Shown here: positions 21,407-36,791 of the stretch, in pieces
How the letters are laid out: each line of letters begins with the position of its first letter
Numbering within the stretch: position 1 is the stretch's first letter
Source of the DNA: Elusimicrobia bacterium GWA2_69_24
GTDB lineage: Bacteria; Elusimicrobiota; Elusimicrobia; UBA1565
Length of the DNA stretch: 40,582 nt
NCBI GenBank assembly: GCA_001799695.1
Contig: MGTY01000019.1
Span: 1-40,582 of the forward strand
Direction: 5' to 3'
The notes under the pieces: model-generated
The model's input: only the letters and a program-made list of their open reading frames with translations
What the model was told of the DNA's origin: nothing
The model's database searches: none
Translations under genes and position numbers: made by a program

Positions 21407-22192
21407 TCACCGGAGCGGCACCACCACGAGGTGCCGGGCGCCGTTGCTCTGCAGGACCCCCGGCACGTCCGACACCTCGCACGGCAGGCCGAGGCGTCGC
21501 AGCATTGCGGGCAGGTCCGGCGACCACTGGATGTAGTCGCCGGTCACCTTGCGCGAGGGCCGCCACCACGCCGGTCCCTTGACGACCTCGTTCGTCCCGC
21601 TGAGCTGCTCGCACAGCACGAGGTGGCGCCGCGCGTGACGCCGCATCTCCGCCAGGAGCCCGGGGAGCGCTCCCGGGTGGAGGTGGATCAGCACACCCAT
21701 GGTGAAGATGATGTCCACGGTGCGGCCGGCGAGCATCGCCGCGGACTCGTAGAGGTCGCCGACGAGGAACTCGCCCCGGACGCGGCTCTGCGCGTGCGCG
21801 ACCGCCTCGGGGCTGATGTCGATGCCGCCGAGCCGCATGCGGGGGTAGCGCTCCTGCAGGACGTACAGGTTGCGCCCGGAGGCGCAGCCGATCTCCAGCG
21901 CGCTCTCGGCCGCGGCGAACGGCGGCAGCGCCGCCAGCCACTCGCTGCGCCGGCTGGCGCGGGTCCGCCGCTCCACCCGATCGACCTCGTCCCAGTACCC
22001 CGGGACGTACTTCGCGGAGCGGTGGGCGGCGCCGCGCCAGACGGCGGCGGTGACCGCCTTGACGCGCTCGAGGTCGGCCTGCGCGTAGCGCTCGTGGGCC
22101 GGCGTCAGCGCGATCCGCACCGCGCGCCGCAGCCCGGCGGGCACCAGGGGGCGGACGAGCCGCTTGAGCCGATCGAGGCGGGCACCGGTCAC
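21407..22192 (-). CDS. SAM-dependent methyltransferase (pseudaminate-biosynthesis-type)
   Basis: A 261-residue methyltransferase with motif I LEIGCASG (99-106), the LGGIDISPEAVAHA strand and VDIIFTMGVLIHLHPG. The IHL-HP stretch resembles methyltransferases that often sit beside nonulosonic acid genes. The N-terminal 90 residues are helical with a YWDEVDRVERRTRAS region. The GTG at 22192 overlaps the NeuB-family gene stop (GTGA), so the longer frame is a shadow. Acceptor is unknown; the position beside neuB suggests a nonulosonic acid or its neighbour sugar. Confidence 0.86.
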   Translation of the reverse strand: MTGARLDRLKRLVRPLVPAGLRRAVRIALTPAHERYAQADLERVKAVTAAVWRGAAHRSAKYVPGYWDEVDRVERRTRASRRSEWLAALPPFAAAESALEIGCASGRNLYVLQERYPRMRLGGIDISPEAVAHAQSRVRGEFLVGDLYESAAMLAGRTVDIIFTMGVLIHLHPGALPGLLAEMRRHARRHLVLCEQLSGTNEVVKGPAWWRPSRKVTGDYIQWSPDLPAMLRRLGLPCEVSDVPGVLQSNGARHLVVVPLR

Positions 22193-23235
22193 CAGGCGAG
22201 CGCCTCCCTCGGCAGCAGGGTGTCGCCCGCCACATCCGCGCGGGCCACCACCCCGATCAGCCGCGGCAGGTCGCGCGGCGAGATCCCGGTCCCGGGCCCC
22301 TTGACGGCGAGGTCCGCGGCCGTGATGACCGCGCCCTTCCGGATGTCCCGCGCGGCCACGACGCTCTTCGCCAGCCGCGCCCGCACGGGCTCCTCGCGGG
22401 GCAGCAGGCGCTTGACGGGCGCCCCCAGCGCGGCCTCGATGTTCCGGACGTTGCGAACGAGCAGCTCGAGCCCTCGCGGCTCGAGGGAGGCGGCATGATC
22501 GGGGCCCGGCAGGGTCCGGTCGAGCGTGACGTGCCGCTCGACCACGACCGCGCCGAGCGCCACGGCGGCCTCGGTGGGCGCCAGCCCGCGCTCGTGGCCG
22601 GAGTAGCCCACGAGCACGCCGAACTCGCGCCGCAGCAGCTCCATCGCGCGCAGGTTGAGGTCCTCGTTCTCCGCCGGGTACGTCGAGGTGCACTGCAGCA
22701 GGACGAGCTGATCGTGGTGGCGCCGGATGGTGCCGACGGCGTCGGCGATCTCGTCGAGCTCGCTCATCCCCGTCGACATGAGGATCGGGCGCCGCTTGCG
22801 CGCGATGTGGTCGATCAGCGGCAGGTTGGTGACGTCCGCCGAGGCGATCTTGAACGCCGGGACGCCCAGCTCCTCCACGAAATCGGCACTCCGCCGGTCC
22901 CAGGCGCTGGCGAGCAGCGTGACGCCCTGCTTGCGCGCCGCGTCGGCCAGCTCCCAGAACACCTCCTCCGGCAGCTCGAGGCGCTCGCGGTGCTCGCCGT
23001 ACGTCGCGCCGAGGGAGTTCGGCCTGAGGTACGGCGCGTCGAGCGCCGCACGAATCAGGATGTCGGGCACCGAGCGCTTCTGGAACTTCACCGCATCGGC
23101 GCCGGCGCGCGCGGCGATCTCCACGAGCCGGAGCGCCAGATCGCGCTCGCCGTTGTGGTTCACGCCGCCCTCGGCGACGACGTAGCAGGGCTGCCCCTCG
23201 CCGACCAGTCGCTCGCCGATCTGGATGGTCGTCAC
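22189..23235 (-). CDS. NeuB-family nonulosonic acid synthase (third copy)
   Basis: A 348-residue synthase that condenses phosphoenolpyruvate with a six-carbon amino sugar to give a nine-carbon nonulosonic acid. The active-site stretch E22 to G29 (AEGGVNHNG) is canonical, with N26, H27 and N28; further signatures are GADAVKFQ, FKIASADVTNLPLI, STGM and CTSTYPA. The C-terminal 60 residues are the SAF/antifreeze-like domain (KGAVITAADLAVKGPGTGI). The GTG at 23235 overlaps the cytidylyltransferase stop. No NeuC/LegG hydrolysing epimerase gene is present beside it, so its sugar substrate is unclear (ManNAc-like, legionaminic precursor or other). Confidence 0.9.
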   Translation of the reverse strand: MTTIQIGERLVGEGQPCYVVAEGGVNHNGERDLALRLVEIAARAGADAVKFQKRSVPDILIRAALDAPYLRPNSLGATYGEHRERLELPEEVFWELADAARKQGVTLLASAWDRRSADFVEELGVPAFKIASADVTNLPLIDHIARKRRPILMSTGMSELDEIADAVGTIRRHHDQLVLLQCTSTYPAENEDLNLRAMELLRREFGVLVGYSGHERGLAPTEAAVALGAVVVERHVTLDRTLPGPDHAASLEPRGLELLVRNVRNIEAALGAPVKRLLPREEPVRARLAKSVVAARDIRKGAVITAADLAVKGPGTGISPRDLPRLIGVVARADVAGDTLLPREALAW

Positions 23236-23960
23236 GGCTCCACTCCCCTGCCGAGGGCGCGCATGAGCGCCTCGGCGATCTCGAAGTCCCGCGCAGAGTC
23301 GAGGTTGACGTACCGCTCCGGGGCGGCGAAGTACGGCACGACGGCCGCGCCCTCGGTGCTCCCCGCCTCGACGATCTCCCGGCGCACCACGTCCACGACG
23401 CCCGCCGAGAGGTACAGGGGCTCCAGGCTCTGTCGCGGCACGTCCGGACCGCGCCGCCGCCGCTCGGCGGTGTCCAGGTAGGGCACGAGCCTCCCCTCCC
23501 GCAGCCGGTACATCTTAAACGGGTGCTCGCCCGCGGGCCGCACGGACTTCACGCAGTCGGCCCGCGTGCGCTCCCACAGCCCGACGGCCTCGTCGATCTC
23601 CTGCGCGGTCCGCAGCGGCTGCGTCGGGCGCAGGTGGACGATCGCGTCCGGGACGTATCCCGCGGCGTCGCCGAGCATCCGGAGCGCGTGCTGGAAGACC
23701 GGCAGGTCCGGGGTGTCGTCGGCGGCCAGCTCCGGCGGCCGCAGGAACGGCACCTCGGCGCCGTGCGCGCGCGCCACCTCGGCGATCTCGGGATCGTCGG
23801 TGGAGACGATGAGGCGGTCGAGGCTCTTCGCCCGGCGAGCGCTCTCGATCGACCACACGATCAGCGGCCGCCCGAGCAGCGGATGCAGGTTCTTCCGCGG
23901 CACGCTCTTCGAGCCTCCGCGCGCCGGGATGATGCCGAGCGCCCGGGTGTGCTCAGGCAT
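23232..23960 (-). CDS. CMP-nonulosonic acid cytidylyltransferase (NeuA-like)
   Basis: A 242-residue CMP-sugar synthetase. The CTP-binding motif IPARGGSKSVPRKN is at residues 11-24, followed by IVSTDDPEIAEVA, HLRPTQPLRTAQEIDEAV and the C-terminal AGVVDVVRREIVEAGS. It activates a nonulosonic acid as the CMP sugar for glycosyltransferases. It overlaps the preceding epimerase gene by eight bases and the following NeuB gene by four, so it is very likely the dedicated partner of that synthase. Confidence 0.9.
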   Translation of the reverse strand: MPEHTRALGIIPARGGSKSVPRKNLHPLLGRPLIVWSIESARRAKSLDRLIVSTDDPEIAEVARAHGAEVPFLRPPELAADDTPDLPVFQHALRMLGDAAGYVPDAIVHLRPTQPLRTAQEIDEAVGLWERTRADCVKSVRPAGEHPFKMYRLREGRLVPYLDTAERRRRGPDVPRQSLEPLYLSAGVVDVVRREIVEAGSTEGAAVVPYFAAPERYVNLDSARDFEIAEALMRALGRGVEP

Positions 23961-24945
23961 GCCGGCGTTCCGTGATCCAGCGCGTGCCGTGCTCCGCGAA
24001 CCAGCGGTACGTGTCCCGGAGCCCCTCCTCGAGCGTGAGCCGCGGCCTCCAGCCCAGCCGGGCCCGCAGCTTCTCGCCGGAGAGGTGCTCGAAGTAGCCC
24101 TTCTGGGACAGGTCCGTCGCCGCGACGACGGGCTCGACACCGGCGCCGGCGACGGCGATGAGCGTACGGACCAGCTCCAGCACGCTCACCGGCGCCGCCG
24201 GGGTGATGTTGAAGGCCTGGCCGCGGACAGCGGGCTCGGCCGCGTGCTCGGCCAGCAGCGCGTACGCCTCGACGGTGTCGCGCGCGTGCAGGTACGCCTT
24301 GACGGGGCTGCCGTCGCTCCGGATGACGGGCGGCTCGCCCCGGAGGAGCGCCAGCACCGAGCCCGTGACGATGTGGCTCGTGTGCGGGTCGCCGGGTCCG
24401 AAGCTGTTGACGTTCCGCGCGGCGACGACGGGCAGGTCGAAGTTCGCCGCGAAGGACCGCGCCAGGAGATCCGCGCACGCCTTGGAGACCCCGTAGGGGT
24501 CGAGCTGGTTCAGCGGCGCGTCCTCGGGAAACGGCGCGACGGCCTGGGGCCCGTAGGCATGGTTCGACGACGCGCACACGACGGCGCGCAGCGGTCCGGC
24601 GCGCCGGCACGCCTCCAGCACCGTCCACGTGCCGCGGACGTTCACCTCGAACGCGGCCACGGGCCCCGCCGCGGCGCCCTCGATCATGGACTGGCCGGCG
24701 AGGTGGAAGCACACGTCGATCGCGTGCTCGCGCAGGGCCCGCTCCACCGCCGCGCCGTCGAGCACGGTGCCGCGGGTCACCGGCACCCGGTCGGCCAGCC
24801 CGTGCACCGCCAGGCAGTCGCCGGTCGAGAGATCGAAGCCCCACGCCCGGGCGCCCCGATCCACCAGGACGCGGCCGAGCCACGCCCCGAGGAAGCCGCC
24901 CGCTCCGGTGATCATCACCCGACGGTCCTGCCAGAACTCGCTCAT
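23953..24945 (-). CDS. NAD-dependent sugar epimerase/dehydratase (CDP-glucose dehydratase-like)
   Basis: A 330-residue extended SDR. The opening FWQDRRVMITGAGGFLGAWL with TGAGGFLG at 13-20 resembles CDP-glucose 4,6-dehydratase (RfbG). The catalytic region has SSNHAYG (126-132) and Y151-x3-K155 (YGVSK); a NVNSFGPGD stretch follows. It acts on a nucleotide sugar, either by 4,6-dehydration or epimerisation. Being coupled to a NeuA/NeuB pair, it might supply the hexosamine precursor, or a further sugar of the glycan. The exact reaction is not assignable by eye. Confidence 0.82.
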   Translation of the reverse strand: MSEFWQDRRVMITGAGGFLGAWLGRVLVDRGARAWGFDLSTGDCLAVHGLADRVPVTRGTVLDGAAVERALREHAIDVCFHLAGQSMIEGAAAGPVAAFEVNVRGTWTVLEACRRAGPLRAVVCASSNHAYGPQAVAPFPEDAPLNQLDPYGVSKACADLLARSFAANFDLPVVAARNVNSFGPGDPHTSHIVTGSVLALLRGEPPVIRSDGSPVKAYLHARDTVEAYALLAEHAAEPAVRGQAFNITPAAPVSVLELVRTLIAVAGAGVEPVVAATDLSQKGYFEHLSGEKLRARLGWRPRLTLEEGLRDTYRWFAEHGTRWITERRHA

Positions 24946-27875: not shown

Positions 27876-29149
27876 CAGGTCTCCTCGCCCAGCCGCCGGC
27901 GCAGGTCGGCGACGATCCGCGCGGCGACGTCGACGTCGACGTGCGCGAAGTAGCGCCGGAGGAACTCGTGCCGCCGCGCGCGGTCCAGGCGGAACTCCGC
28001 GAGCCGGCTCCGGCCGAACCGCGCGATGAACTCGCCCACGCCGAGGCTCCAGGTCACGCCCGGGTAATTGAACAGGCATCCCGGCGCGGTGGAGAGCGCC
28101 GGCACCACCATGCGCCGGCCGTAGGCGGGCCATTCCGCGGGCGTCGGCGAGATGCAGACGTTGGGGACCCCGGCGAAGGCGGCCTCGCAGAGCGCGCCGC
28201 TGTAGAAGTGGACGCAGAGGTCCGCCGCCGAGAGGAGCTCGAGGATCGTGGCCGGGTAGTAGGCCTCGTCGTAGAAGACCCGATCCGCCAGGCGGCGCAC
28301 GTACCGCGGCACCGGGTTCTTCATCCGCGACTTCACCACCAGCAACGCGCCGTTGCGGTCGCAGAACTCCCGCACGCTCTGCGCCGTGCGCCGGTCGTTC
28401 CAGCCGTTCCTCGGGTACGGCAGGTACTCTGTGCGGCCCGAGAGCGCGATACTGGCGTACTGGAGGAGTCGCCCCCGACCGTAGATGCGCCCCGGCCAGA
28501 AGTCGCGATGGTGACGGACGCTCGCGAACGGGAACGGCAGGTAGACGACGACGGGGCGCCCCGCGGGCAGCCCGAGCCGGGCCCGGACCGTCGCCCGGTC
28601 GATGAAGCGGAGCTGCTCCAGCTCGGCGAAACCCACCGGGACGAAGATGGCGCCGAGATCCTTGCGGTAGCGGTCATGCTCCTCGCGCGTCAGCGCGCGC
28701 TCGTGCGTCACGTACTCGGCCGACCACTGAACCCACTCGGCCGAGAAGCCGTAGACGACGTCGAACAGGTGCACGGCCGAGATGATGCTCGGGTGCGGGA
28801 AGCACTGGAGCTGCGCGAGGAGCACGCCCGCGGCCAGCGGATGCAGCCGCAGCGCCTCCAGCACCGGATTCTCGGCCTGCGCGAAGAGAACGTGGAGCCG
28901 GGCCTCGTGGACGAGCCGCGCCAGCTCGTCCAGCGAGGCGAACGCCGCGGCGCGCGGCGTGCCGTTGCGGAACGCCGGCACCTCCTCGAGGTACGGGAAC
29001 TCGTACGCCTTGGGCCCCCGTCGCGGCGTGTTCACGCCGCGGTGGTCGCACAGGAGCGTCACCCGGTCGCCTCGCGCGAGCGCATGCTCGATCAGCCCCG
29101 CGAAGTGCTTGAAGTAATTCCGCCGCATCACGAAGATGCCGAGATTCAC
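27875..29149 (-). CDS. GT-B-like protein of unknown specificity, linked to NeuB
   Basis: A 424-residue protein I do not recognise as a named family. It begins VNLGIFVMRRNYFKHFAGLIEHALARGD with the GT-B-like N-terminal strand-helix, has VVVYLPFPFASVRHH at the start of a second domain and ILELLSAADLCVHFYSGALCEAAFAGVP at the place of the donor-binding helix. The plan is that of a glycosyl- or glycerophosphotransferase. It overlaps the stop of the second NeuB gene by four bases (GTGA), so a role in using or modifying that nonulosonic acid is likely but unproven. Confidence 0.68.
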   Translation of the reverse strand: MNLGIFVMRRNYFKHFAGLIEHALARGDRVTLLCDHRGVNTPRRGPKAYEFPYLEEVPAFRNGTPRAAAFASLDELARLVHEARLHVLFAQAENPVLEALRLHPLAAGVLLAQLQCFPHPSIISAVHLFDVVYGFSAEWVQWSAEYVTHERALTREEHDRYRKDLGAIFVPVGFAELEQLRFIDRATVRARLGLPAGRPVVVYLPFPFASVRHHRDFWPGRIYGRGRLLQYASIALSGRTEYLPYPRNGWNDRRTAQSVREFCDRNGALLVVKSRMKNPVPRYVRRLADRVFYDEAYYPATILELLSAADLCVHFYSGALCEAAFAGVPNVCISPTPAEWPAYGRRMVVPALSTAPGCLFNYPGVTWSLGVGEFIARFGRSRLAEFRLDRARRHEFLRRYFAHVDVDVAARIVADLRRRLGEET

Positions 29150-30207
29150 GCGAGGTCGCTCCAGGCGAGCATGGTCCCGCGCCCGACGTCGCGGGCGAGC
29201 GTGCGCCCGAGCACGTACGGCAGCTCCGCGGGCGTGATCCCCGTCCCCGGCCGCCGCCAGTCCACGGCGTCCCCCGTGAGGCGCGCGCCGCGCGCGAGAT
29301 CGCGGGCCGCGAACAGGCTGCGCCGGGCCTTCAGTTTCCCCTGGGCCTCCTCCGGGGACATGATCCGGCGGGCGCGGCCCAGCGCGACCTCCAGGTCGCG
29401 GATCGCCCGGACGAAGGCGGCGGCCTCGTGCGGCTCGACCGACATGATGTGCTCGGGGCTCCGCGTGCGGCGGTCCAGCGTGAGCGTCTTCTCGACCATG
29501 TTGACGCCGAGCGCCACCGCGGCGATGTCCATGTCCCAGCCGGGCGTGTGGTCGGAGAACGCGATCGGGAACTCGAACATCTGCCGGAGCGTGGGGATGA
29601 TCCGCAGGTTGATCGACTCGAGGCGCGCCGGATACCCGGACGGACAGTGGTGGATGATGATGCGGTCGTTGCCGGCCCCGGTGATGATCTCCACCGCCCG
29701 CTCGATCTCGCCGATCGTCGAGGAGCCGGTGTCGATCATCACCGGGATCGCGCTGGCGGCGACCCGGGCGAGCCACGGGTGATGATTGAGGTCGCCGGAC
29801 GCGACCTTGACCGCGTGGCAGCCCAGCTCCCGGACGAAATCGAGGGTCTCGGAATAGTCCACGGTGGCGAAGAAGGTGATGCCGAGCTTGTCCGCGTAGC
29901 GCTTGAGCTCGGCCCACTCCGCCCGCGTCAGCTCCCGGCGCCGCAGGATGACCTCGAGCGGCTCGGTGACGTCCTCGACGGACCCGTCGGCGTTGAGGAC
30001 CTTGTACGTGATCGCGACGTCCCGCTGGCCCATCAGCCGGTCCGTGTCCAGGATCTGGAACTTGATCGCGTCGCCGCCGGCCTCGGCCGCCACCTCCACG
30101 AGCCGCCGCGCCGACTCGAACCCGTGGTGGGTGGGGCCCGCCTCGAAGACGATGAACACGGGGTGGCCGTCCCCGCACGGGCGACTGCCGATCACGCTGT
30201 GTCTCAT
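29146..30207 (-). CDS. NeuB-family synthase, divergent (second copy)
   Basis: A 353-residue NeuB-family protein. The fold signatures are present (GGDAIKFQ, VKVASGDLNHHPWL, IIHHCPSGYPARLESINLR, FSDHTPGWDMD, EKTLTLDRRTRSPEH, and a C-terminal SAF-like GTGITPAELPYVLGRT). The phosphoenolpyruvate-site stretch reads FEAGPTHHG: E22 and H27 are kept, but N26 is T and N28 is H relative to the other two synthases. This marks a distinct subfamily that I recall from other bacterial glycan loci. It lies just after pseF (ATGA overlap), so it probably makes a different nonulosonic or related ketoulosonic acid. Product unknown. Confidence 0.85.
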   Translation of the reverse strand: MRHSVIGSRPCGDGHPVFIVFEAGPTHHGFESARRLVEVAAEAGGDAIKFQILDTDRLMGQRDVAITYKVLNADGSVEDVTEPLEVILRRRELTRAEWAELKRYADKLGITFFATVDYSETLDFVRELGCHAVKVASGDLNHHPWLARVAASAIPVMIDTGSSTIGEIERAVEIITGAGNDRIIIHHCPSGYPARLESINLRIIPTLRQMFEFPIAFSDHTPGWDMDIAAVALGVNMVEKTLTLDRRTRSPEHIMSVEPHEAAAFVRAIRDLEVALGRARRIMSPEEAQGKLKARRSLFAARDLARGARLTGDAVDWRRPGTGITPAELPYVLGRTLARDVGRGTMLAWSDLA

Positions 30208-30902
30208 GCCTTGCGCCCTCGCCTGAGAAACGTCGCGAATTCCAGGTCCAGGGGATGGTCGACGTCGACCGACGACTCCCGGTCCATGTGGTACGCGACC
30301 ACCCGACGTCCGTAGAACTCCTTCGCGCGGCGGAACCCGTCCGTCCGCGCCCACAGCGCGACGCCGTTGTGCCGGTAGAGCCGGGGCAGCCGGGAGCGGC
30401 TTCTCAGCAACCGGGGCCCGAAGGCCAGGCGCAGGACGCCGCGCGCTTCGCGGACCGCCCACCAGGGGACGTGGGGGAACTCGACCACCGACATCACCAC
30501 GTCGGCGCGCCGCCGGTCGAGGAGCGCCCAGCTCTCCCGCACGTGGCGCGCCGTCCGCATGGGCGACGTCGGCAGGAGGACGCAGAAGGCGCCGAAGCGC
30601 TCGCCGCGGCGGGTCAGGTCGTCCAGGACGTCGAGGCAGACGTCCACGACCCGCGCGGAGTCGCTCGCCAGGCGCCGGCTGCGCCGGTGGACCGTGGCGC
30701 CCGCCCGCGCCGCCACGCGGGCGATGTCCCGGTCCTCGGTCGACACCACCACGCGGTCGAACAGCCGGCTCCTGCGCGCGACGTCCACCGCGTGCGCCAC
30801 CAGCGGTTTGCCCTCGAACCGGGCCAGGTTCTTCCCCGGGAAGCGCTTGGACCCTCCCCGGGCGGGAATCACGCACAACCTGCGCGCCGACGCCCTCGTC
30901 AC
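30204..30902 (-). CDS. pseF: Pseudaminic acid cytidylyltransferase
   Basis: A 232-residue CMP-sugar synthetase with the CTP-binding VIPARGGSKRFPGKN motif (11-25), VVSTEDRDIARVA, CVLLPTSPMRTARHVRESW and a C-terminal SSVDVDHPLDLEFA, which matches the D-x-P-x-D-x substrate/metal site at the end of PseF/NeuA proteins. In the pseudaminic acid route it makes CMP-pseudaminic acid. The GTG at 30902 overlaps the acetyltransferase stop as GTGA. It is named PseF from its place in the pse block; it might also serve the divergent NeuB next to it. Confidence 0.85.
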   Translation of the reverse strand: MTRASARRLCVIPARGGSKRFPGKNLARFEGKPLVAHAVDVARRSRLFDRVVVSTEDRDIARVAARAGATVHRRSRRLASDSARVVDVCLDVLDDLTRRGERFGAFCVLLPTSPMRTARHVRESWALLDRRRADVVMSVVEFPHVPWWAVREARGVLRLAFGPRLLRSRSRLPRLYRHNGVALWARTDGFRRAKEFYGRRVVAYHMDRESSVDVDHPLDLEFATFLRRGRKA

Positions 30903-31384
30903 GGCCGCGCCCCCGCCGCGGGTCGCTCGCAGACGAGCTCCACCGTCGGGCCTGCCGCGCCGGAGGGTCTCGGCCGATATCCCGCGCGCTCGAACGTCGC
31001 GAGCGACGCCAGGTTCTGCCCCTTGACGCGCGCGATCAGACGCTCGAGGCCGAGGACGTCGAACGCCTCGCGGCCCAGCCGCCGGAGCGCCTCCAGCCCG
31101 AGCCCCTTCCCCCGCCACTCCGGCGCGAGGTTGATCGACACGACCGCCGCCCGACCCTGGAGATCCAGCCGGACCATGCCCACGGCGGCCGCCTCCACCT
31201 CGATCACGTAGAGCCGGCGGTCGGCGTCCCCGAGCACGCCCTCGAACCAGCGCGCGTGGACGTCGAGGGGCACCTCCCGCTCGTCGAACGAGGCCCGGCG
31301 CGTCTCCGGGTCGTTCCGCCAGCGCCAGAGGGCCTCGCAGTCGCCGGCGTCCGCCGGACGCAGGCGCATCCCGGCCGCGCTCAC
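30899..31384 (-). CDS. pseH: GNAT acetyltransferase, PseH-like
   Basis: A 161-residue GNAT-fold protein: MRLRPADAGDCEALWRWRND at the N terminus, ISINLAPEWRGKGLGLEAL (acetyl-CoA pyrophosphate loop RGKGLG) in the middle and NLASLATFERAGYRP near the end. In the pseudaminic pathway PseH N-acetylates the 4-amino group of the UDP-linked sugar. The sequence alone shows only a GNAT; the assignment rests on its place between pseI and pseF. The GTG at 31384 overlaps the pseI stop; ATG at 31369 is the alternative. Confidence 0.82.
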   Translation of the reverse strand: MSAAGMRLRPADAGDCEALWRWRNDPETRRASFDEREVPLDVHARWFEGVLGDADRRLYVIEVEAAAVGMVRLDLQGRAAVVSINLAPEWRGKGLGLEALRRLGREAFDVLGLERLIARVKGQNLASLATFERAGYRPRPSGAAGPTVELVCERPAAGARP

Positions 31385-32424
31385 ACGAGATCCCACGTCA
31401 GGATCGTGTCCTCCTCGATGTCGGCCTTCGCCACCCGGCCGATCACGAGGTCGAGATACTTCGGCTTGATGCCGTAGCCCGGCCGCTTGATCGTCACCAT
31501 GTCCCGCGCAATCCGCGTGCCCGTGGGGATCGCGCACGCCGCCACGAGGCTCCGGCGCGCTTTCTCGTGCATCTCGAGCTCGTCCGCCGCGGGGCCGGCC
31601 TTGCGCCCGTCGCCCAGCGCCGCCTCGACCTCGCGGACCTGCCCCACGAGCTCGGCGAGCTCCTTCGGCTCGACCGCGAACGGGTGGTCGGGGCCCTTGA
31701 GCTTCCGGCTCAGCGTGTAGTGCTTTTCGATGATGCACGCGCCGAGCGCCGCCGCGGCGGCGGCGACGTGGATCCCGAGGGTGTGGTCGGACAGGCCCAC
31801 CACGGCGCCGAAGGCGCGCCGCATCGTCTCCATGGCGCGGAGGTTCATGCGAGCCGGCGGCGCGGGGTAGAGCGAGGCGCACTGGAGCAGCGCGATCTGG
31901 TCGTTGCCGGCGCCGCGGCACGTGCCCACCGCGTCCTCGACGTCCTCGTAGGTGGCGAGCCCGGTCGAGAGGATCATCGGCTTGCCGCGGGACGCGGCGT
32001 CACGGATCAGCGGGAGATCCACGATCTCGAACGACGCGATCTTGTACGCCGGGACGCCGAGCGCGTCCAGCTCGTCGATCGCGCGATGGTCGAAGGGCGT
32101 GGACAGGAAGACGAGACCGTGGCGGCGCGCCTCGGCGGCGAGCTCCGGCTGCCACTCGCGCGGCAGCTCGATCGCCTTGATCACATCCCACGTGCTCGCG
32201 TCGGTGAGCCCCGCGAGGTACGTGAACCGAGGCGTCTTCTTCGAGTAGAGCGTCTCGGCCGAGTAGGTCTGGAACTTCACCGCGTCGGCCTTCGCCGCCG
32301 CCGCGACCGCGATCAACTCCTTCGCCATCCCCAGGTCGCGGTTGTGGTTCGCGCCGGCCTCGGCGACGACGAAGCACGGCTCGCCGTCGCCGATCCAGCG
32401 CTCGCCGATCCGGAGCCTCAGCAC
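31381..32424 (-). CDS. pseI: Pseudaminic acid synthase
   Basis: A 347-residue NeuB-family enzyme of the PseI type. The active site reads AEAGANHNRD with E22, N26, H27 and N28; PseI-type features include LSTPFDHRAIDELDALGV, YKIASFEIVDLPLI and GKPMILSTGLA. The C-terminal SAF domain is present (GTRIARDMVTIKRPGYGI). It joins phosphoenolpyruvate to 2,4-diacetamido-2,4,6-trideoxy-L-altrose, giving pseudaminic acid. GTG start, seven-base overlap with pseG. Confidence 0.9.
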   Translation of the reverse strand: MLRLRIGERWIGDGEPCFVVAEAGANHNRDLGMAKELIAVAAAAKADAVKFQTYSAETLYSKKTPRFTYLAGLTDASTWDVIKAIELPREWQPELAAEARRHGLVFLSTPFDHRAIDELDALGVPAYKIASFEIVDLPLIRDAASRGKPMILSTGLATYEDVEDAVGTCRGAGNDQIALLQCASLYPAPPARMNLRAMETMRRAFGAVVGLSDHTLGIHVAAAAAALGACIIEKHYTLSRKLKGPDHPFAVEPKELAELVGQVREVEAALGDGRKAGPAADELEMHEKARRSLVAACAIPTGTRIARDMVTIKRPGYGIKPKYLDLVIGRVAKADIEEDTILTWDLV

Positions 32425-33413
32425 GGCCGGCCCCCAACCGGCGTCGCCGCCCCGAGGCGCGCGCGCATCTCGTCCGCCACGCGGGCCGCGCCGAGCCCGT
32501 CCACGAGCGCGCGCCCGCGCGCGCCCAGGCGCCGTCGGCGCTCGGGCTCGGCGGCGAGCGCCGCGACCGCCGCGCGCACCGTGTCAACAAGGCGCGGGTC
32601 GTCCGCGTCGCCGGCGACGACGAGCGCGCCCGTGGCGGCGAGGCCGTCGAGGTTCGTCCGCTGGTTCGGCGCCAGGCAGACCGCGACCGTCGGCGTCGCG
32701 GTCGCGGCGAGCTCCAGCGCGGTCACGCCGCCCGCGGACACCGCGAGGTCGGCTGCCAGCATCAGCGGGCGGAGCGACTCGGGCGCGACCCGGAGGGTGA
32801 CGCCGTCGAGGACGCCGAGCGCGGCCCGCACCGCTTCGGCCCCGTCGCCCGCCGGCCCGACGACCACGTCGAGCGCCGCCCGGGGCAACGCCGCGCGGAC
32901 CGCGCCGGCCACGCGCGCCACCAGCGCCGCCGGCGTCGCGCCGCCGAACGCCACGAGCACGCGCTCGACGTCGCGGCCCGCCGGCCGCGCGGGCCCCGCC
33001 GCGAACACGCGCCCGAGGAGCGCGAAGCGCGGTCCGAGCAGGTAGCGTGTGCCCCGAGCCGGCGGCGGCGGGGCCAGGCCGAGGGCCGCGTTCACGACGA
33101 TGTCCGCCGCCAGGGGAAAACGGCCGGCGTCGTCCACACGCACCGTGAGCCGCACGCGCCCACGCGCCGCCTCGAGCTCGCGTGGGGACACGCGGTAGCT
33201 GTCCACGACCAGCGCGACCGCGGTGAGATCGCGCACAACCTCGAGGGCGCGCCCGAGCCCCTCGGTCTCGTCGACGAGCATCCGGCACTCGGCCCAGGGC
33301 GCGAGCGCCTCGACGAGCGCCTCCGCGCGGCGCACGTGGCCGAGCCCGGCGGCCCGCCCACCATCGGCCCGCAGGACGACGCGCGGGTGCTCAGCGCGCG
33401 AAGTGGTCGACAA
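32418..33413 (-). CDS. pseG: UDP-2,4-diacetamido-2,4,6-trideoxy-altropyranose hydrolase
   Basis: A 331-residue GT-B-fold sugar-nucleotide hydrolase. The N-terminal RADGGRAAGLGHVRRAEAL contains the GxGH motif, with H26 as the probable catalytic base (known as H17 in Campylobacter PseG). LVVDSYRVSPRELE and AVSAGGVTALELAATATPT complete the family pattern. It cleaves UDP from the sugar to give the free substrate for PseI. The start is TTG at 33413, with a 23-base overlap into pseC; no ATG or GTG fits, so this is a rare start that may lower its translation. Confidence 0.9.
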   Translation of the reverse strand: MSTTSRAEHPRVVLRADGGRAAGLGHVRRAEALVEALAPWAECRMLVDETEGLGRALEVVRDLTAVALVVDSYRVSPRELEAARGRVRLTVRVDDAGRFPLAADIVVNAALGLAPPPPARGTRYLLGPRFALLGRVFAAGPARPAGRDVERVLVAFGGATPAALVARVAGAVRAALPRAALDVVVGPAGDGAEAVRAALGVLDGVTLRVAPESLRPLMLAADLAVSAGGVTALELAATATPTVAVCLAPNQRTNLDGLAATGALVVAGDADDPRLVDTVRAAVAALAAEPERRRRLGARGRALVDGLGAARVADEMRARLGAATPVGGRPC

Positions 33414-34581
33414 CCTTCACCACCGCGGCGACGACGTCGTCCACGTCGCGGTCCTCCATCGAGGGGAACAGCGGCAGCGTCAGCAGACGCTCGTACGCGC
33501 GCTCGGCCACGGGGCAGAGCCCCTTCGGGTACCCGAGGCGCTGGTAGTAGGGGTGCCAGTACACGGGGACGTAGTGGACGCTGACGCCGATGCCCTCGGC
33601 GCGCAGCGCCGCGAAGATCGCGCGCCGGTCGGCCGCGAGGCGCTCGAGGGCGAGCAGCAGCGGGAAGATGTGCCACGCGTGCCGCACGCCGGGCGTCACC
33701 GCCTGGAGGGCGACGCCCGGGAGCCCTCCCAGCGCCGCGCGGTAGCGGGCCGCGATCGCCTCACGGCGGGCGAGAAACCGGTCGAGCTTGGCGAGCTGCG
33801 AGAGGCCCAGCGCGCACTGCACGTCGGTCAGCCGGTAGTTGAACCCGAGATCCACCATCTCGTAGAGCCACTCGCCGCTCCGAAACCGTTCCCCGGCGCT
33901 CGAGGTGATCCCGTGGTTGCGAAAGCGCGTCGCCCGCTCGGCGAACCCGGCGTCGTCCGTCACGACCATGCCGCCCTCGCCGGTCGTCACGTGCTTGACC
34001 GGATGGAAGCTGAGCGTGGTCAGGTGCGCCTGGCGTCCGAGCGGGCGGCCGTGGTACTCGGCGCCCAGGGCGTGCGCGGCGTCGTCGAGCAGCACGAGCC
34101 CATGCGTCTGCGCCAGCTGCCGCAGCTCGTCGAGGTCCGCCGGGTGGCCGGCGAAGTCCACCGCGACGATCGCCCGGGTCCGAGCCGTGAGCTTCTCGCG
34201 CACGCGGGCGGGATCGAGGGTGAGCGTGTCCGATCGGACGTCGGCGAAGACCGGCGTCGCGCCGACATAGAGCATCGCGTTGGCCGTGGCCGCGAACGTG
34301 AGGGCCGGGACGACGACTTCGTGCCCCGGACCGAGCCCCGCGGCGAAGGCCGCCGTGTGGAGCGCGGCCGTGCCCGAGGACACGGCGATCGCGTGGCGAA
34401 GCCCGAGCCGCTCCGCCACGCGCCGCTCGAACTCCGCGACCCGCGGCCCCGTCGTGATCCAGTCGCCCCGCAGGGTCTCCACGACCGCGGCCACGTCGGC
34501 GTCGTCGATCGTCTGGCGTCCGTACGGTAGCATCGCGGTACGCACCGGTGGGCCGCCGTGAACGGCGAGCCGCTCACCCAT
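33391..34581 (-). CDS. pseC: UDP-4-amino-4,6-dideoxy-N-acetyl-altrosamine transaminase
   Basis: A 396-residue PLP-dependent DegT-type aminotransferase. SSGTAALHTAAFAAGLGPGH, the LLDDAAHALGAEYHGRPLG stretch and the Schiff-base lysine K196 in LSFHPVKHVTTGEGG are the family motifs, with the SFHPVKHVTTGEGG form characteristic of PseC. GFNYRLTDVQCALGLSQL and the C-terminal SVHYVPVYWHPYYQRLGYPK fit PseC. It aminates the 4-keto sugar made by PseB. It overlaps pseB by eight bases and pseG by 23. Confidence 0.94.
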   Translation of the reverse strand: MGERLAVHGGPPVRTAMLPYGRQTIDDADVAAVVETLRGDWITTGPRVAEFERRVAERLGLRHAIAVSSGTAALHTAAFAAGLGPGHEVVVPALTFAATANAMLYVGATPVFADVRSDTLTLDPARVREKLTARTRAIVAVDFAGHPADLDELRQLAQTHGLVLLDDAAHALGAEYHGRPLGRQAHLTTLSFHPVKHVTTGEGGMVVTDDAGFAERATRFRNHGITSSAGERFRSGEWLYEMVDLGFNYRLTDVQCALGLSQLAKLDRFLARREAIAARYRAALGGLPGVALQAVTPGVRHAWHIFPLLLALERLAADRRAIFAALRAEGIGVSVHYVPVYWHPYYQRLGYPKGLCPVAERAYERLLTLPLFPSMEDRDVDDVVAAVVKVVDHFAR

Positions 34582-35542
34582 CGACGAGGCTCCGCATCTC
34601 CGCGGACGTCAGGAAGTGGTCGTTCGTGTCGCTCGCGTAGCTCGCGCCGGCCGCCAGCCGCCGCCCCTCGGTCCGGCGGGGGTATGCCCAGCTCGGCGAG
34701 AGCGGCTCGACGACGAACATGTCGTCGAGCTCGAGCGCCTGGCGCGCCTCGTCCTCGGAGATCAGGATCTCGTGGAGCTTCTCGCCCGGGCGGATCCCGA
34801 CGAACTCCGCGCGGCAGCCCGGCGCGACCGCTTCGACGAGATCCATGATCCGGGTGCTCGGGATCTTCGGCACGAAGATCTCGCCGCCGCGCATGAGGCC
34901 GAGGCAGCGGGCGACGAAGTCCACGCCCTGCTGGAGCGTGATCCAGAAGCGGGTCATCTTCGGGTCGGTGACGCTCACCGAGCCGTTGGCGCGCTGGGCC
35001 TGGAAGAGCGGGATCACGCTGCCGCGGCTACCGATGACGTTGCCGTAGCGGACGCAGGCGAAGGTGGTGCCCCGCACGAAGCCGTAGGTGTTCGCCTGCA
35101 CGAACAGCTTCTCGGCGCAGAGCTTCGTCGCGCCGTAGAGGTTGAGCGGGTTCACCGCCTTATCGCTGCTGAGCGCGATGACCCGCCCGACGCCCGAGTC
35201 GATCGCCGCGTCGACCACGTTCTTGGCGCCCATCACGTTGGTCTGGATCGCCTCGAACGGGTTGTACTCGCACGCCGGGATCTGCTTGAGCGCCGCCGCG
35301 TGCACCACGACGTCGATGTCGTGCATGGCGCGGACCAGCCGCTCGCGGTCGCGGACGTCGCCGATGAAGAACCGGAGCGCCGGGTGTCGGAGGCGCCCCT
35401 GCATCTCCGACTGCTTGAGCTCGTCGCGGCTGAACACGACGAGCCGGCGCGGGCGGTGGCGGGCGAGCACGGTCTCGACGAACCGAGTGCCGAACGAGCC
35501 GGTGCCGCCGGTGACGAGGATCGAGGCGTCAGTGAGCTCCAT
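34574..35542 (-). CDS. pseB: UDP-N-acetylglucosamine 4,6-dehydratase (inverting)
   Basis: A 322-residue SDR of the FlaA1/PseB type, which dehydrates and C5-epimerises UDP-GlcNAc to start the pseudaminic route. The NADP site is TGGTGSFG (11-18). Other signatures are FSRDELKQ, AALKQIPACEYNPFEAIQTN and SSDKAVNPLNLYGATK with D127, K128 and Y136-x3-K140; the K128-Y136 spacing equals K133-Y141 of FlaA1. RPGEKLHE and MTRFWITLQQGVDFV are also typical. ATG start, overlapping the regulator by 14 bases. Confidence 0.95.
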   Translation of the reverse strand: MELTDASILVTGGTGSFGTRFVETVLARHRPRRLVVFSRDELKQSEMQGRLRHPALRFFIGDVRDRERLVRAMHDIDVVVHAAALKQIPACEYNPFEAIQTNVMGAKNVVDAAIDSGVGRVIALSSDKAVNPLNLYGATKLCAEKLFVQANTYGFVRGTTFACVRYGNVIGSRGSVIPLFQAQRANGSVSVTDPKMTRFWITLQQGVDFVARCLGLMRGGEIFVPKIPSTRIMDLVEAVAPGCRAEFVGIRPGEKLHEILISEDEARQALELDDMFVVEPLSPSWAYPRRTEGRRLAAGASYASDTNDHFLTSAEMRSLVDG

Positions 35543-36149
35543 TGGTCCTCTTGGGCGGGGAGAGGGTGAGCAGCTTCTCCGCGGGGATCCCGAGCGCCAC
35601 GAGGTCGGGCACGTGGAGCTTGGGCTTGTCGAACGTGGCCACGACGATCCGGTCCACGTCCGCGGTCGCGAGCTCCCGCCAGTCGCGCACCGTGAGCCCG
35701 AGGAAGACGCCCTCGGCGTTCCGCGCGAACACGCCCACGGGCTCGAGGCCGGCCTCCCGGAGCGTGAGGTACGCGAGCTCCGCGGCCTCGCCCGTGCCGT
35801 AGAGCGCGATGCGCCGGAGGCCGCTCCGCGGCAGGTGCGCGAGCGCGTCCCGCAGGGTCGCGCGGGCCAGCCGGTAGAGCGCGAGCGAGCGGTCCATGTA
35901 CTGGTACGTGAGGCGGGTCTTCTCGGCGAGGCCCCGCGGGGTCAGGAGGTAGCGCAGCCGGCGGCGGGGTCGGGGTTTCCGCGGGAACTCGACAATCTTG
36001 ATGAAGCCCTTGCGCGCCAGCCGCTTGAGGTAGAGGTTCGTCAGGCCGACCGCGACGCCGAGCCGCTGGGCGAGGGCGCGCTGGGTCAGCGAGTCGGCCT
36101 CGCCGATGACGGTCAGGATCTGGAGATGACGCTCGTCGCTACGCTCCAT
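35529..36149 (-). CDS. Winged-helix regulator with C-terminal Rossmann-like domain
   Basis: A 206-residue protein. The first about 75 residues are a winged helix (ILTVIGEADSLTQRALAQRL, VGLTNLYLKRLARKGFIKIV, LTPRGLAEK), like the small regulators that head exopolysaccharide clusters. A helical linker follows, then RRIALYGTGEAAELAYLTLREAG, a Rossmann-type glycine turn (GTGEAAE) also seen in PglD- and CoA-binding-type domains. It probably binds DNA and may sense a nucleotide or sugar nucleotide through its C-terminal part. ATG at 36149 is chosen over 36176 because the longer start would lie inside the promoter. It is the first gene of the glycan operon. Confidence 0.8.
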   Translation of the reverse strand: MERSDERHLQILTVIGEADSLTQRALAQRLGVAVGLTNLYLKRLARKGFIKIVEFPRKPRPRRRLRYLLTPRGLAEKTRLTYQYMDRSLALYRLARATLRDALAHLPRSGLRRIALYGTGEAAELAYLTLREAGLEPVGVFARNAEGVFLGLTVRDWRELATADVDRIVVATFDKPKLHVPDLVALGIPAEKLLTLSPPKRTNGAH

Positions 36150-36157
36150 GGATGAGC

Positions 36158-36172
36158 GTTCAATAATTGAAC
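36158..36172. promoter_or_regulatory. Perfect palindrome, candidate operator
   Basis: The 15 bases GTTCAAT-A-ATTGAAC form a perfect inverted repeat around a single central base. It sits over the -10 box and the expected transcription start of the regulator gene and is AT-rich against a very GC-rich background. A likely role is autoregulatory binding by the winged-helix protein whose gene begins nine bases downstream. Binding has not been shown. Confidence 0.6.
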
Positions 36173-36192
36173 ACAACAGGCCCGCAGGTCAA
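36163..36192 (-). promoter_or_regulatory. Candidate promoter of the glycan operon
   Basis: On the minus strand, TTGACC (36187-36192, 5/6) and AATTAT (36163-36168, 4/6) are spaced by 18 bases. The start of transcription should fall near 36156, only about 7 bases before the ATG at 36149, so the mRNA would be nearly leaderless; no Shine-Dalgarno sequence is seen. This is the only clear promoter I find for the 29-gene run, though internal promoters cannot be excluded. Confidence 0.5.
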
Positions 36193-36255: not shown

Positions 36256-36684
36256 CTACTCGCCGATCACCTGGACCGAGACCTCGCGGCGCCGGGGACC
36301 GTCGAACTCGGCGAAGATGATCGACTGGAAGCGGCCGAGCGTCAGCTCGCCGTGGTTCAGCGCGACGGCGATGTTGCGCCCGAGGAGGGCGGCCCGCAGG
36401 TGCGAGTGGGCGTTGCCGCGCTCGCAGTCGGAGACCCGGGGGTCGTCGTGCCGGTAGCCCTGCCGCTCGGGCACGAGCCGCTCGGCGAGGGCCTTGAGAT
36501 CGTCGATCAGCGCGCTCTGGAACTCGTTGACGAAGAGCGCGCACGTCGTGTGCAGCGTGTTGACCAGGGCGATGCCCGTCGAGACGGGAAACTGCTGAAC
36601 CGCGTCCCGCACGAGCTTGGTGATGTCTGAGACCTCCGTGCGCTCCTCACTCGATAGCGTGAACGAGGCGCTGAAAACCTTCAT
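36256..36684 (-). CDS. yjbQ: YjbQ/UPF0047 family protein
   Basis: A 142-residue protein of the YjbQ (secondary thiamine-phosphate synthase-like) family, of the usual length. Signature text includes NTLHTTCALFVNE (H45), DCERGNAHSHLRAALLG (H93 and H95) and LTLGRFQSIIFAEFDGPRRR. The E. coli member has weak thiamine-phosphate synthase activity; the physiological role is uncertain. It is a single-gene unit with its own promoter, a GGAGAG ribosome site, and no coupling to either neighbouring operon. Confidence 0.93.
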   Translation of the reverse strand: MKVFSASFTLSSEERTEVSDITKLVRDAVQQFPVSTGIALVNTLHTTCALFVNEFQSALIDDLKALAERLVPERQGYRHDDPRVSDCERGNAHSHLRAALLGRNIAVALNHGELTLGRFQSIIFAEFDGPRRREVSVQVIGE

Positions 36685-36761: not shown

Positions 36762-36791
36762 ACCATAACGACACAGTGCGGTAAAAGTCAA
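36762..36791 (-). promoter_or_regulatory. Candidate sigma70 promoter of yjbQ
   Basis: TTGACT (36786-36791, 5/6 match) and TATGGT (36762-36767, 4/6 match) on the minus strand are separated by 18 bases, in an AT-enriched patch of the 165-base gap between yjbQ and the peptide-transporter genes. The predicted leader is about 70 bases. Confidence 0.5.

Follow-up and report, generated by a model that had tools for sequence, protein, structure and literature searches.

The TIGR04176 (MarR_EPS) family comprises winged-helix proteins with a QR...LG..N core whose genes lie beside surface-polysaccharide clusters, traits that the regulator described here shares. Redox repressors of the Rex family bind NADH, possess a swapped C-terminal helix, and have an operator that differs from GTTCA-N5-TGAAC, the dyad considered below. 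MexR, a MarR family protein of Pseudomonas aeruginosa, binds paired inverted GTTGA half-sites that overlap its own promoter and that of an efflux operon, as described in passages of PMC9892617. A salt-induced MarR EPS-associated regulator is merely named in PMC10599003, and the reference-list passages of PMC1569441 do not have a MarR regulator among their subjects. Our literature searches found no account of a GTTCA-N5-TGAAC operator.

The window analyzed here is a stretch of 40,582 nucleotides from Elusimicrobia bacterium GWA2_69_24 (contig MGTY01000019.1). It contains a regulator gene preceded by GTTCAATAATTGAAC, a perfect 15-bp palindrome with the core GTTCA-N5-TGAAC (Table 1). An earlier note on this DNA had described the palindrome as standing out in a GC-rich genome, which holds true: 11 of its 15 bases are A or T, while the window has a G+C content of 73%. 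Perfect 15-nt palindromes are not rare as a class (24 in the window versus 10.9 per shuffle); only the one at 36158-36172 contains 11 or more A/T, and no equally AT-rich 15-nt palindrome arose in 60 dinucleotide shuffles of the window. A count over the 4.2-Mb genome, estimated to be 85% complete, gave a single GTTCA-N5-TGAAC dyad. Read along the minus strand, the order is TTGACC, 14 bases, GTTCAATTATTGAAC (36172-36158), 8 bases, and ATG (36149). The interval singled out in the earlier note (36158-36192) covers both the palindrome and the TTGACC hexamer.

Table 1. Features of the regulator locus and the downstream sugar operon (positions in the window)
Feature	Position	Strand	Basis or remark
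Operator (predicted), perfect palindrome GTTCAATAATTGAAC, core GTTCA-N5-TGAAC	36158..36172	.	sequence, shuffles, comparison
-35-like hexamer TTGACC	36187..36192	-	promoter scan; 14 bp ahead of palindrome
Candidate -10 hexamer AATTAT inside palindrome	36163..36168	-	inferred from promoter scan
Regulator start codon ATG	36147..36149	-	8 nt past palindrome; ~6-8 nt after inferred transcription start
Regulator gene, 206 aa, MarR-type winged helix and C-terminal Rossmann-like domain	35529..36149	-	profiles, structure model
DNA-binding domain, residues 1-91, MarR fold	35877..36149	-	structure match, best MexR 1lnw
C-terminal Rossmann-like domain, residues 103-202, putative effector domain	35544..35843	-	structure model, fold matches
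pseB (UDP-GlcNAc 4,6-dehydratase), overlaps regulator gene end	34574..35542	-	TIGR03589, 473.1 bits, over cut-off
pseC (aminotransferase)	33391..34581	-	TIGR03588, 451.9 bits, over cut-off
pseG-like hydrolase	32418..33413	-	TIGR03590, 106.2 bits, below cut-off 153.55
pseI/neuB-like nonulosonate synthase	31381..32424	-	367.4 and 328.4 bits, both below cut-off
ORF, C-terminal part pseH-like (GNAT)	30899..31921	-	47.8 bits, below cut-off
ORF, C-terminal part pseF-like (CMP-sugar synthetase)	30204..31118	-	154.3 bits, below cut-off

A promoter scan gave two hits (shuffle mean, 0.2), one of which pairs TTGACC (36192-36187, minus strand) with AATTAT (36168-36163) across an 18-bp spacer and matches the consensus at 9 of 12 positions. 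The palindrome had been placed over -10/+1 by the earlier note; on this promoter reading it does cover the -10 hexamer but ends about 1 to 2 bp before +1. If transcription starts about 7 nt past the -10 hexamer, the leader would measure about 6 to 8 nt. In each of the eight closest loci (L002-L009), a TTGAC box precedes the palindrome by 14 to 16 bp and an ATG follows it at 0 to 12 nt. At this spacing a ribosome-binding site would hardly fit, if at all, which makes near-leaderless translation likely there; for the regulator gene of the window, near-leaderless translation is likely, and the corresponding suggestion of the earlier note is plausible. In some distant relatives, the TTGAC box lies 20 to 24 bp before the palindrome, with TATAAT often abutting the latter. 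Several relatives have only a poor -10 hexamer within the palindrome. One fixed promoter register for all relatives was rejected because the distance from -35 to palindrome is bimodal (14 to 16 and 20 to 24 bp). An upstream TTG start (36176-36174, giving a 215-aa frame) is less likely, since protein similarity begins at the ATG and the upstream frame is lost in L003. A second sigma-70-like promoter match (TTGACT-18-TATGGT; 36762-36791, minus strand) lies upstream of a YjbQ-like gene (36256-36684).

Conservation of the site was assessed ahead of homologous regulator genes. A contig scan provided 19 homologous loci (L003-L021), and a search of the window's phylum provided 21 further loci (L022-L042) in 20 other genomes, so that 21 of 294 genomes matched with its own included. 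No regulator homolog was found in the 7 other genomes of the window's own taxonomic family, and the close comparison is therefore carried by the contig-scan loci. All 5-mer dyads with gaps of 0 to 12 were counted without bias in the 350 bp upstream of 42 regulator genes (the window's own, those of L003-L042, and that of L076, a second copy in the L016 genome). GTTCA-N5-TGAAC ranked first, with 37 of 42 genes, compared to a top count of 3 for any dyad in 100 shuffled sets. Extending the region to 650 bp raised this number to 38, the dyad being missing from L012, L013, L015, and L017. The further homologs of the window's phylum, which are 27 to 45% identical in the aligned part, are preceded by the site in 21 of 21 cases. 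An independent search with the TIGR04176 HMM in the phylum of Nitrospira genome G306, which contains L018, covered 295 genomes and returned 143 matches in 126 of them. We used 140 of these; the three set aside were a match containing stop codons, a fragment, and the match in G306 itself, which L018 already accounts for. Upstream of the long regulators, the exact site occurred within 600 bp in 108 of 122 cases, and upstream of the short ones in 13 of 18, whereas a reversed control pattern was found for 0 of 140. Pooled over several phyla, the exact dyad and gap precede 158 of 182 regulator genes within 600 bp, in 156 distinct 45-mers. The controls stayed close to zero: the count was 0/182 on the gene side (first 600 bp), none of the 59 alternative arrangements of these letters exceeded 1/182, and no other gap exceeded 2/182. 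An exact site is lacking in 24 of the 182 at 600 bp and in 23 at 650 bp; 5 of these 23 have a 9-of-10 match.

This comparison strongly supports the proposal of the earlier note that the regulator acts on its own gene through the palindrome, with autorepression as the predicted outcome. It also bears on the view that no protein binds the palindrome, which would then be a product of chance or simply a -10 region rich in A/T. A -10 element must be AT-rich, and the 24 palindromes of the window show that such symmetry is frequent there; however, the exact gap and letters are kept before the pooled genes although the -35 distances vary by clade, and we give this view next to no credence. A chance palindrome was rejected on this conservation together with the AT-richness unmatched in the shuffles.

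Of the long-type loci in the Nitrospira phylum, 108 have the site; 58 of them contain an in-frame ATG, GTG, or TTG inside the right half-site, and 54 of these 58 have no later ATG ahead of the conserved domain. A start codon within the operator and a -10 element just upstream suggest a leaderless message that would start at the operator-embedded codon. Two or three tandem copies of GTTCA-N5-TGAAC lie before the regulator at L020:4716-4805, L076:2165-2198, L042:1414-1456, and L036:2028-2102, an arrangement that suggests cooperative binding. At L021:4950-5320 (Rokubacteria genome G308), the regulator seems broken, the good match being limited to residues 99 to 138, and a search of the whole genome at E 1e-8 gave no match; operator and TTGAC box are still present upstream.

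The regulator itself scores over the Pfam gathering cut-offs of HTH_24 (40.9 bits; cut-off, 21.9), MarR_2 (31.1; 27), and MarR (25.9; 24.6), which places it in the MarR superfamily by profile, and MarR folds match it at Z scores of about 12 to 14. No Rex family domain was found among its Pfam matches at E values up to 0.1. Its score against TIGR04176 (71.8 bits, E 4.1e-20) misses the curated cut-off of 88 bits; it is thus a relative of MarR_EPS and no member by the curated rule. The linkage to exopolysaccharide or surface-sugar genes that marks TIGR04176 is present, with pseB and pseC directly downstream. An AlphaFold2 model (mean pLDDT, 89) has MexR 1lnw as the best structural match of residues 1 to 91 (Z 13.8, rmsd 1.6, 87 aligned). 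Q23, R24, G35, and N38 are invariant in 51 sequences and lie in or beside the predicted recognition helix (34-47), in agreement with a fixed half-site. The C-terminal domain, modeled alone (pLDDT, 90), best matches the uncharacterized protein 2g6t (Z 11.3, rmsd 2.8, 91 aligned). Rex-like matches reach Z 9 to 10, yet most of the Rossmann families matched are tied in Z, and a sequence-only search with this domain returned weak, mixed matches. From these folds, a nucleotide or nucleotide-sugar is a reasonable guess for the ligand.

Regulator and operon genes lie on the same strand and overlap or abut, from which we infer a single transcript that would comprise the regulator and the pseB-pseC-pseG-pseI-like genes. 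The operon encodes a nonulosonic-acid-type pathway with a putative pseudaminic-type product. The same cluster contains more NeuB-like synthase ORFs (window 29146-30876 and 22189-23235) and a second PseF-like ORF (window 23232-24140); possibly, more than one nonulosonic acid is made. Among the genes adjoining the regulator in relatives, 30 of 69 ORFs were scanned as a sample and 26 gave hits, mostly to sugar-nucleotide enzymes, ABC flippases, glycosyltransferases, and NusG paralogs; exceptions included a histidine-biosynthesis gene and an FAD oxidoreductase. Downstream in GC-rich loci, 4 of 10 ORFs had no Pfam hit and probably represent wrong frames. A NusG paralog, a possible operon-specific antiterminator, follows the regulator at L093:2061-2555, L098:501-1013, L101:860-1408, and L019:3179-3682.

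Sites were also found elsewhere. The L012 genome, which has no site near the regulator, carries three on the same contig: two between divergent genes ahead of a glycosyltransferase-like gene and one ahead of a flippase-like gene (names from translations). TGTTCAN5TGAACA is present in 46 of the 294 genomes of the window's phylum, and several genomes have 3 to 6 sites per contig. Sixteen regions from six genomes (G291, G126, G258, G084, G004, and G276), picked for clustered or multiple sites, contain 23 sites; a scripted rule placed the start codon inside a half-site in 7. PseB is directly preceded by a site in three genomes (485 to 490 bits; cut-off, 407.75). The same holds for a NeuB/PseF-like fusion (436.5 bits for NeuB, over the cut-off), a PseG-like protein (150.9 bits, just under 153.55), and a LegB-like protein (467.6 bits, just under 475). 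Further sites stand ahead of genes of different or unassigned type, including an M28-type peptidase, a fusion of an acyl-activating enzyme with an aminotransferase, and ORFs without hits. These distributions argue against control of the regulator genes through the palindrome by another, unlinked factor, such as a global or SOS-type regulator. The half-sites of the palindrome do resemble LexA boxes of some phyla that contain GTTC/GAAC; however, a global factor would have many sites where the window's genome holds one, a count on which a global regulator site was rejected. The site also tracks the regulator homologs across phyla and recurs in surface-sugar loci, and we regard such a factor as most unlikely.

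In our judgment, the palindrome is very probably the operator of the adjoining regulator, through which the latter would repress its own gene and the pseB-pseC-pseG-pseI-like operon. The same dyad before most of the pooled homologs, never inside their genes, and before sugar genes elsewhere points to the operator of a conserved autorepressor with a regulon for the synthesis of surface sugars (nonulosonic acids). A MarR-type winged-helix dimer would occupy the promoter by binding both GTTCA half-sites, with their 5-base gap, and block RNA polymerase, which would repress the regulator gene and the operon co-transcribed with it. The C-terminal Rossmann-like domain would probably sense a pathway nucleotide or nucleotide-sugar and alter DNA binding, and translation would probably begin close to the 5′ terminus of the mRNA. 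Because the palindrome overlaps the promoter, we expect repression. The regulator could instead bind the palindrome and activate, or act both ways depending on its ligand, as surface-sugar operons are often turned on by dedicated factors. Binding in the -10/+1 region, which the site spans together with the start codon in many loci of the Nitrospira phylum, normally blocks RNA polymerase, however, and we consider activation quite unlikely.

With slightly less than even confidence, we extend the repressor model to a general proposal. GTTCA-N5-TGAAC may serve, across phyla, as the operator code of a MarR-type family that carries a fused Rossmann sensor of the nucleotide-sugar type and controls nonulosonic-acid and other surface-sugar loci. 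Many of its members would fuse promoter, transcription start, operator, and start codon in one 15-bp element, with a leaderless message starting at an initiation codon that belongs to a half-site. From sequence alone, a little-studied regulator family thereby gains a concrete predicted DNA target and a testable regulon. The operator could be used to find surface-sugar switches in uncultured phyla, and the presence of a sensor-like domain suggests that a metabolite of the pathway feeds back directly. Loci with the start codon in the operator offer test cases for leaderless translation and repression that share few bases.

Compared to known systems, the regulator shares its predicted operator with short TIGR04176 members over the cut-off (13 of 18) but scores below that cut-off and has an extra C-terminal Rossmann-like domain, whereas the short members examined measure 103 to 122 aa. 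With Rex/RSP repressors it has in common the plan of a winged helix plus a Rossmann-like fold; RSP was the first Foldseek match of the whole model, and Rex 3wg9 is among the best C-terminal matches (Z 9.9, rmsd 2.7, 92 aligned). In contrast to these repressors, its DNA-binding part is MarR-like, and the chains as a whole superpose poorly (TM 0.31, rmsd 14.1). The C-terminal fold also resembles UDP-quinovosamine 4-dehydrogenase 3nkl (Z 10.1, rmsd 3.1, 90 aligned), the GDP-perosamine N-acetyltransferase PerB 4eaa (Z 10.1, rmsd 3.2, 90 aligned), WbaP 8t53 (Z 9.9, rmsd 3.6, 97 aligned), and, likewise among nucleotide-sugar Rossmann domains, the PglB acetyltransferase. Unlike in those enzymes, the Rossmann domain of the regulator, with its putative ligand binding, is fused to a DNA-binding domain and comes without a catalytic domain. 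MexR shares the fold of the DNA-binding domain and inverted half-sites overlapping its own promoter, to which binding is predicted in our case. The half-site here is GTTCA and not GTTGA, the genes concern surface sugars and not efflux, and MexR has no Rossmann-like domain. By analogy, MexR offers a close precedent for the proposed mechanism.
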